Shown here piece by piece: positions 4,132-7,398 of a stretch of DNA of 64,000 nt (its first letter is position 1; each line of letters opens with the position of its first letter). The stretch covers positions 62,001 to 126,000 of the forward strand of contig DASYHQ010000051.1 of NCBI GenBank assembly GCA_035998445.1, read 5' to 3'. Origin of the DNA: Tepidisphaeraceae bacterium. GTDB lineage: Bacteria > Planctomycetota > Phycisphaerae > Tepidisphaerales > Tepidisphaeraceae. The translations under genes were made by a program, and so were the position numbers. The notes under the pieces are model-generated. The model ran no database searches. It saw only the letters and a program-made list of their open reading frames with translations, and was not told the DNA's origin.

Positions 4132-4728
4132 TCAAGATTGGATGCAATTCGTAGCGAAACGACGAATCCCCTTATCGGTCACCAGCATACTCAGTGGGAC
4201 GTCGTGTTCAAGGACGGGAAGCTGTTCGAGCACCTGCAATTCGAACGCAAGGCCACAGCTGACACCGCAAAAGTTTGGTTGGGCGAGGAAGCGATCGTAG
4301 AACCCCATGCCGCGACCAATGCGGTACCCGGTCGGCGAGAAGCCCAGGCCCGGCACCACGACGAGGTCGACGAAGTCGGCGGGAATCGGCTTGCCGCTCA
4401 CCGGCTCGCGAACGCCAGGCCCGGTGGTGGTCAAACCGGTGGTGAGGCTGGTGATCTCGGTGGGCATCATGCGCTTCTGGTCCCAGGAGACCTTTGGCAC
4501 GACGACGGTCTTGCCCGCCTGCCAGCAGCGCAGCGCGAGGTTGGCGGTGTCCAGTTCCTCGGGCATCGCCAGGTAGAGCATGACGACCTTGGCGGCCTGA
4601 AACTCGGGCGACGCCGACAGCAACGCACAGGCGGCGACGCTCTTGGCGTGCCGGTCGACGACCGAGTGGGCAGCCAACGCTGCCTTCAGCTCGCGACGGA
4701 TGGCGGGTTTGCCGTTCACATCAGACAT
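4132..4728 (-). CDS. 5-formyltetrahydrofolate cyclo-ligase
   Basis: 198 residues, the normal length for the family. The cytosolic enzyme converts 5-formyl-THF to 5,10-methenyl-THF with ATP, returning this dead-end folate to the one-carbon pool. Visible family features: the N-terminal basic helix KPAIRRELKAAL, the substrate-site region AMPEELDT (E58), PGLGF at 126-130 and the nucleotide-binding loop RIGRGMGFYDR at 136-146. The product would feed FolD, encoded 1.8 kb away on the other strand. In many bacteria this gene lies directly downstream of the 6S RNA gene, which bears on the structured region at 4815-4930. Gene names ygfA and fau are used elsewhere. Confidence 0.93.
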   Translation of the reverse strand: MSDVNGKPAIRRELKAALAAHSVVDRHAKSVAACALLSASPEFQAAKVVMLYLAMPEELDTANLALRCWQAGKTVVVPKVSWDQKRMMPTEITSLTTGLTTTGPGVREPVSGKPIPADFVDLVVVPGLGFSPTGYRIGRGMGFYDRFLAQPNFCGVSCGLAFELQVLEQLPVLEHDVPLSMLVTDKGIRRFATNCIQS

Positions 4729-6423: not shown

Positions 6424-6531
6424 CCCTCGATTCTATCGCACCGCCGGTCGGTTTCTCACGCCCGTGCCCGGAATTCTGAACGGCGGCGCGTCGTGCCAAT
6501 CTACCAGCCGTGCCTTACAATCCCATGCCCT

Positions 6532-7398
6532 ATGGCAGCCACGATTATCGACGGTGTCGCGATCTCCAGCCGCATTAAAGAACAGGTGAAGGCCGGCGTC
6601 GTCGCCCTTGGCAAGCCGGTGAAGCTGACGGCCATCATCGTCGGCGCGACCTCTGCCGGTGAGCTTTACGCGCTGCGGCAGGGCGAAGCGTGTCGGGCCC
6701 TGGGCATCGAATATCAGCTGATCACCTTCGCGGCCGACGTGACGCAGAAGCACCTCAAACAGCAGATTCGCTTGCTGAACGTCGACCCGTCCGTCACCGG
6801 CATCATGATGCACCTGCCGCTGCCGGCCCATTTAGATGCGCCACGGCTGCAGTACGAGATCGACGTCGTGAAGGACGTGGAAGGCGTGAACCCGGCCAAC
6901 ATCGGTTACGTCACCTACGGCCATGTGGTGATCGCGCCCTGCACGGCGCTGGGTGTGATCGAACTGATCGAATCGACCGGCGTTGACCTGCGCGGCGCCG
7001 AAGCAGTCGTGGTGGGGGCCAGCCAGATCGTTGGTAAGCCGGTCGCGCTGCTGCTGACCGAGCGCATGGCGACCGTCACCACCTGTCACATCGCCACGCG
7101 CGATCTGAAGGCGCACACCCAGCGGGCCGACGTGCTGGTGGTGGCGGTGGGCAAGCCCGGTTTGATCACCGCCGACCACGTGCGCGACGGCGCGACCGTG
7201 ATCGACGTCGGCATCAACCGCATCGCCCAGCCGGACGGCACCAAGAAGACCGTCGGCGACGTCGACTTCGACGCGGTGCGCGAGAAGGCCGCCTACCTCA
7301 CCCCCGTCCCCGGTGGGGTCGGTCCGATGACCGTCGCCATGCTGGTGAAGAACACGCTGCGCTCGGCGGAGATCTTGTACGGCGTAACGAAAGGGTGA
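6532..7398 (+). CDS. folD: FolD: methylene-THF dehydrogenase with an altered cyclohydrolase site
   Basis: 288 residues, family-typical. FolD interconverts methylene-, methenyl- and 10-formyl-THF in the cytosol. The NADP-binding half is well conserved (VVGASQIVGKP about 160-170, VAVGKPGLI, VIDVGIN, PVPGGVGPMTVAML). The catalytic half is not. By exact spacing against E. coli FolD as I recall it, Tyr50 is kept (Y46), but Lys54 is Gln (Q50 in YALRQGEAC), Gln98 is His (H94 in MMHLPLP), and Asp121 is Glu (E117 in DVEGVNPANIG). The lysine is essential for cyclohydrolase in studied homologues, so this protein may be dehydrogenase-only. I chose the ATG at 6532 because it gives the standard MAATIIDG start; the frame stays open further upstream only as a shadow of rarA. 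Confidence 0.9.
   Translation: MAATIIDGVAISSRIKEQVKAGVVALGKPVKLTAIIVGATSAGELYALRQGEACRALGIEYQLITFAADVTQKHLKQQIRLLNVDPSVTGIMMHLPLPAHLDAPRLQYEIDVVKDVEGVNPANIGYVTYGHVVIAPCTALGVIELIESTGVDLRGAEAVVVGASQIVGKPVALLLTERMATVTTCHIATRDLKAHTQRADVLVVAVGKPGLITADHVRDGATVIDVGINRIAQPDGTKKTVGDVDFDAVREKAAYLTPVPGGVGPMTVAMLVKNTLRSAEILYGVTKG

Follow-up and report, generated by a model that had tools for sequence, protein, structure and literature searches.

A FolD Type with Gln54 and Glu121 Paired with an FchA-Type Gene: A Predicted Methylene-THF Dehydrogenase without Cyclohydrolase in a Tepidisphaeraceae Bacterium

A bifunctional annotation is given to FolD proteins nearly as a matter of course, and every NCBIfam FolD model matched by the protein described here names a bifunctional enzyme. 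The folD gene within a 64,000-nucleotide stretch of the genome of a Tepidisphaeraceae bacterium (hereafter, the window; Table 1) nevertheless encodes a protein in which three of the four residues assigned to the cyclohydrolase site are changed. The locus raises the question of whether such a FolD still performs both steps and, if not, which protein of the cell supplies the cyclohydrolase.

Both FolD Pfam domains score above their cut-offs across the full window protein: PF00763 with an E-value of 5.4e-26 (91.6 bits; cut-off 32.8) and PF02882 with an E-value of 8e-64 (214.2 bits; cut-off 27). The AlphaFold2 model (pLDDT 96.2) has the FolD fold, and its best PDB matches are all FolD or MTHFD structures (3l07, 3p2o, 1b0a, and 1a4i), with TM-scores of about 0.9. 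The protein is ~40% identical to E. coli FolD, and the E. coli K-12 sequence, taken from NC_000913, served as the reference for the residue calls; its numbering is used in the text for the active-site positions. The motif pairs around these positions align without ambiguity (E. coli/window: YVASK/YALRQ, VQLPL/MHLPL, and KDVDG/KDVEG). Tyr50 is kept, and Lys54, Gln98, and Asp121 are replaced by Gln, His, and Glu, so that all four calls of the first-pass annotation are exact, and alignments to the FolD sequences of the PDB give the same changes. The window protein thus lacks the set typical of a bifunctional FolD, namely the lysine of the YxxxK motif, Gln98, and Asp121, and shares with the dehydrogenase-only C. 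perfringens type the absence of Lys54. An alignment shift hiding a lysine is ruled out, as YALRQ is gap-free and glutamine occupies position 54 in 122 of 122 members of the clade described below. An antisense open reading frame at 6433–6831 is a shadow of folD and not a separate gene.

Table 1. Features of the window, with window coordinates.
Feature	Position	Strand	Basis or remark
folD, Gln54/Glu121 type (E. coli numbering)	6532..7398	+	288 aa; predicted methylene-THF dehydrogenase without cyclohydrolase
Tyr46, retained (Tyr50 in E. coli)	6667..6669	+	alignment
Gln50, replaces catalytic Lys54	6679..6681	+	alignment; K54N data, PMC5688156
His94, replaces Gln98	6811..6813	+	alignment; Q98H data, PMC5688156
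Glu117, replaces Asp121	6880..6882	+	alignment
Ala163, at human Arg173 place (NADP 2'-phosphate contact)	7018..7020	+	alignment; role, PMC3368264
Ile187, at human Ser197 place (NADP 2'-phosphate contact)	7090..7092	+	alignment; role, PMC3368264, PMC9173628
5-formyl-THF cyclo-ligase (MTHFS)	4132..4728	-	TIGR02727, 143 bits (cut-off 84.9); PF01812; 1.8 kb from folD

The lysine has been assigned the acid–base work of cyclohydrolysis, Gln98 the positioning of this lysine, and Asp121 the holding of the pterin, and the three residues have been termed strictly conserved among FolD orthologues (PMC3338484). In E. coli, the K54N variant has no detectable cyclohydrolase activity and about 19% of the dehydrogenase activity, while the Q98H variant retains about 1% and about 8%, respectively (PMC5688156); these data agree with a dehydrogenase-only reading of the window FolD. 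The first-pass annotation had noted that the lysine is needed for cyclohydrolase in studied homologues. A computational study of human MTHFD2, on the other hand, left the role of the lysine and the base of the cyclohydrolase step unsettled (PMC9173628). The two E. coli variants are carolacton-resistant mutants (Q98H structure, 5o2a) altered at the same positions as the window protein, with a histidine at position 98 identical to that of the window, and in them the cyclohydrolase is lost or nearly so while the dehydrogenase is partly retained. However, K54N and Q98H are single mutants of a Lys-type enzyme, whereas the window clade combines three linked natural changes with an FchA-type partner.

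Replacements at conserved positions could also stem from a decaying gene or from sequencing errors. The same three changes are present in relatives whose FolDs are 57–72% identical to that of the window, which already refutes this explanation; moreover, the reading frame is intact, the FolD fold is predicted with confidence, the gene is the sole folD of its genome, and no observation in favour of error or decay came up, leaving these with practically no probability.

To place the changes among other FolDs, 218 sequences were aligned, comprising 137 from the same class (that of the window included), 80 named loci identified by scanning public genomes, and E. coli FolD. Positions 54 and 121 divide this set completely, with Gln54 and Glu121 in 122 sequences, Lys54 and Asp121 in the other 96, and no mixed combination. 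The Lys-type FolDs come from many phyla and show invariant Lys54 and Asp121, with Gln at position 98 in 95 sequences and Glu in one. Position 98 is loose in the Gln/Glu FolDs (His 64, Gln 36, Asn 16, and Ser, Met, and Leu 2 each), and His98 of the window is a variable extra that lies outside the subfamily signature. The two types are further split by columns 111 (Gln in the Gln/Glu type versus Ile, Leu, or Phe), 133 (Tyr in the Gln/Glu type), 143 (Ala in the Gln/Glu type versus Pro), and 65 (Tyr versus Ser). When columns 54, 98, and 121 are left out of the tree calculation, all Gln/Glu FolDs fall on one side of a single branch (SH-aLRT 98), and the type switches once on this tree. Given the 122/122 versus 96/96 split and the one supported branch, the Gln/Glu FolDs are a coherent subfamily and not the product of drift, with a residue linkage far beyond chance. 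A coherent clade had been raised initially as an alternative to the dehydrogenase-only reading, and the two prove compatible. Because neither Gln54 nor Glu121 varies in the 122 sequences, both residues probably take part in the dehydrogenase reaction, unlike the drifting position 54 of the clostridial FolDs considered below.

The genome of the window (5.84 Mb, 95.5% complete) contains one FolD, and no formate–THF ligase (FTHFS) was found in it at this completeness. The presence of PurH and of three Formyl_trans_N proteins, which use 10-formyl-THF, indicates that this compound is needed by the cell; rescue by a second FolD or by Fhs was considered and set aside, the genome having been searched and neither found. 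The genome does encode, on another contig, a single FTCD_C protein (C50:145119-145646; PF04961, E-value 1e-39), and an FchA-type gene thus accompanies the FolD in the same genome, as in C. perfringens. The protein is standalone, with about 207 aa, the PF04961 domain only, and no formiminotransferase; its homologues include an FchA with a solved structure (7vg4), the Thermotoga protein 1o5h, and mammalian FTCD. The NCBIfam FchA model NF045657 is its only substantial NCBIfam match, at an E-value of 4.9e-24 and 85 bits, far below the curated cut-off of 275. In an FTCD_C tree, in which the “fused” labels are unreliable for clipped loci, it lies on a long branch with unsure placement. The protein can thus be described as a distant FchA homologue, for which homology and pairing with FolD suggest a cyclohydrolase role; the score of 85 against 275 bits, together with the occurrence of the FTCD_C domain in formimino-THF cyclodeaminases, leaves the reaction short of certain. 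The expectation, voiced in the first-pass annotation, that a FolD of this kind would leave the cell in need of another cyclohydrolase is borne out by this gene content of one FolD, no FTHFS, and one FchA-type gene, and by a pairing that holds across the class.

A second folate gene, for MTHFS, lies near folD in the window (Table 1). The 5-formyl-THF cyclo-ligase remakes methenyl-THF from 5-formyl-THF. An operon of folD with MTHFS or RarA was considered and rejected, as neither gene is found near folD in relatives, whose loci span ~1.5 kb per side.

For the class as a whole, 135 genomes with one FolD type were counted, one row each, G238 being left out since it has both types. An FTCD_C (FchA/cyclodeaminase) gene is present in 108 of the 112 Gln/Glu genomes versus 1 of the 23 Lys/Asp genomes (Fisher p 3e-20, a value inflated by relatedness). 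An independent-pairs test found one pair on the FolD tree and has no power, and with one type change on that tree, few independent events lie behind the pairing. FTHFS is absent from 92 of the 112 Gln/Glu genomes, where FchA would therefore be the sole enzymatic route to 10-formyl-THF. In the window's own family, one genome (G080) has a Lys-type FolD and FTHFS and lacks FTCD_C, and in family f20, which has both FolD types, FTCD_C tracks the Gln/Glu type except in one 88% complete genome; the Lys-type FolDs of f20 share 81% identity with a Sedimentisphaerales sequence, which would fit a class within the planctomycetes, Phycisphaerae for example. The single FTCD_C domain of G142 (family f14), a genome with a Lys-type FolD, is part of a full-length FTCD like those that act in histidine degradation, and relatives have a shorter FchA-type gene in addition or instead. 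The FchA gene adjoins folD in G146 and G221, and the sole FTCD_C of several f3 genomes is fused to formiminotransferase. At the f3 loci L288–L290, the FchA-like domain is likewise fused to formiminotransferase in some genomes, and it stands alone in G002, beside a canonical FTCD.

These counts bear on the idea that the FolD only dehydrogenates and that methenyl-THF opens spontaneously to 10-formyl-THF, making a partner enzyme unneeded. E. coli K54N mutants are indeed viable without detectable cyclohydrolase, which the authors credit to the spontaneous reaction, but their growth is very slow (PMC5688156). Four Gln/Glu genomes do lack FTCD_C and have zero or one FTHFS; however, these four are incomplete (79, 58, 53, and 88% complete), and the gene is retained in all the others, so that a purely spontaneous opening appears very improbable.

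It can also be argued that the Gln/Glu FolD has kept both activities, its cyclohydrolase site having been rebuilt in a different way from Gln54, Glu121, and further clade-specific residues, and that the FTCD_C protein is an unrelated formimino-THF cyclodeaminase. The invariance of Gln54 and Glu121, with positions 111, 133, and 143 invariant or nearly so, points to a site under selection rather than a drifting one, and the FTCD_C protein resembles FchA only distantly. Against this, E. coli FolD that has lost Lys54 shows no detectable cyclohydrolase (PMC5688156), FTCD_C tracks the FolD type in more than 100 genomes and is missing alongside a Lys-type FolD inside the same family, and clostridial FolDs that adjoin FchA are without the same lysine. 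A retained cyclohydrolase thus seems unlikely, and the alignment, the E. coli mutant data (PMC5688156), and the pairing with FchA lead us to infer that the window folD very likely encodes a dehydrogenase whose cyclohydrolase activity is lost or nearly lost, that step being performed by the FchA-type protein.

Nine named Gln/Glu loci lie outside the class. In four cases (one Planctomycetota and three Omnitrophota) the genome has no other FolD, and FTCD_C is present in all four genomes, directly beside folD in two (Omnitrophota). The other five (SAR324, three Mesorhizobium, and another Hyphomicrobiales) are extra copies: each of these genomes has a further FolD that resembles the E. coli protein more closely, and FTCD_C was found in none of the five. 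Among the Lys-type genomes checked outside the class, 35 of 41 are without FTCD_C. In SAR324 (L178, 3283-8193), the Gln/Glu FolD is flanked on one side by an FAD-GcvT demethylase and on the other by a Rieske oxygenase that partly matches glycine betaine monooxygenase, and a DddP-like gene lies beside them; the cluster looks like one for methylated-amine breakdown with its own methylene-THF dehydrogenase, which fits methyl-group oxidation. The remaining four extra copies are L180, L185, and L190 (Mesorhizobium) and L188 (Hyphomicrobiales), and at L180 the FolD gene adjoins glcE and glcF, which encode glycolate oxidase.

Within the class to which a clostridial genome belongs (L304–L333), 15 of 15 readable FolDs adjoining FchA are without the lysine (Ala in 13, Ile, and Leu). 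Most of these FolDs have YxxxA, and all 15 have Phe or Leu at position 98 and keep Asp121; they differ in this from the window protein with its Gln54 and Glu121. The clostridial FolDs thus present another version of the lysine-less site, again with FchA as partner. A single clade of the Gln/Glu and clostridial lysine-less FolDs is not rejected (p-AU 0.59), and convergence of the lysine loss is therefore not claimed.

The FolD of C. perfringens is reportedly a dehydrogenase only, with a separate FchA acting as the cyclohydrolase. This pair (Aluri et al. 2016, doi 10.1099/mic.0.000209) is cited in PMC7219735, and its division of dehydrogenase and cyclohydrolase between two enzymes is the one proposed here for the window genome, although Clostridia also have Fhs, which the window genome is without. 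Dehydrogenase and cyclohydrolase are likewise separate in Methylobacterium extorquens, as MtdA and FchA (7vg4 and 7vg5), and the latter is homologous to the FTCD_C protein of the window genome. MtdA belongs to a dehydrogenase family other than FolD, whereas the window dehydrogenase is a true FolD. With the bifunctional enzymes (E. coli FolD, human MTHFD1, and MTHFD2), the window protein has in common both Pfam domains, the fold, Tyr50, and the VPGGVGPMT motif; it differs from them in the replacement of Lys54, Gln98, Asp121, and two of the three NADP 2'-phosphate contacts, and in the presence of an FchA gene in the genome.

The last of these differences within the protein concerns the cofactor half, which had been described at first as fully conserved. 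This description fails at the 2'-phosphate contacts, although the Rossmann core and the VPGGVGPMT motif are intact; the main argument is unaffected. In the human and Leishmania enzymes, the 2'-phosphate of NADP is bound by an Arg/His/Ser set (human Arg173, His196, and Ser197; PMC3368264). The window protein has Ala163, His186, and Ile187 in these places, so that only the His remains of the Arg/His/Ser set of NADP-dependent FolDs. Arg/His/Ser or Thr is the usual set in Lys-type FolDs, and E. coli FolD has Ala/His/Arg. With two of the three contacts lost, use of NAD+ by the window FolD is possible; since the E. coli enzyme is NADP-dependent with Ala/His/Arg, the Ala/His/Ile of the window does not settle the cofactor. 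The Gln/Glu families f3, f7, and f9 retain Arg/His/Thr or Ser, and the cofactor change is therefore separate from the change at positions 54 and 121.

In the arrangement proposed here, the window FolD would oxidize 5,10-methylene-THF to 5,10-methenyl-THF with NAD+ or NADP+, a step assigned by homology; the FchA-type protein would hydrolyze methenyl-THF to 10-formyl-THF, which would then feed purine synthesis and initiator-tRNA formylation. As no formate–THF ligase was found, the cell probably makes 10-formyl-THF enzymatically by this route alone. Because the same swap recurs across about a hundred related genomes, the Gln/Glu FolD with FchA is a stable two-enzyme arrangement and not a broken gene. 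A bolder reading, which we offer as tentative, is that the Gln54/Glu121 FolDs may be an old and separately optimised subfamily, with a rebuilt site (Gln54 and Glu121 invariant; Gln111, Tyr133, and Ala143 typical), NAD+ as cofactor in most lineages, dehydrogenation as the only activity, an obligate FchA, and insensitivity to carolacton; the insensitivity would be expected because carolacton anchors on Lys54.

The division of labour is already known from C. perfringens, while the Gln/Glu site and its class-wide pairing look like an undescribed variant: a literature search, with most subscription journals outside its scope, found no description of the Gln/Glu FolD type or of its pairing with FchA in the class. 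FolDs fall into two types at residues 54 and 121, and these residues also predict whether FchA is present in the genome, so that the annotation and metabolic models of the class, and of some Omnitrophota and Clostridia, can be corrected from a two-residue reading. The Gln/Glu clade is a large exception among FolDs and a natural test of why both activities usually occupy one active site, and it allows direct tests of which cofactor is used, of whether FchA is essential, and of the expected insensitivity to carolacton.

Two minor observations were made along the way. A folD match in another genome of the class (G200:C12:41378-42241) contains one in-frame TAG. At 490–951 of the window, open reading frames on both strands carry a repeated motif (e.g., RNQLIAVRGQLVAR), which suggests that a short tandem repeat array lies near the start of the window.
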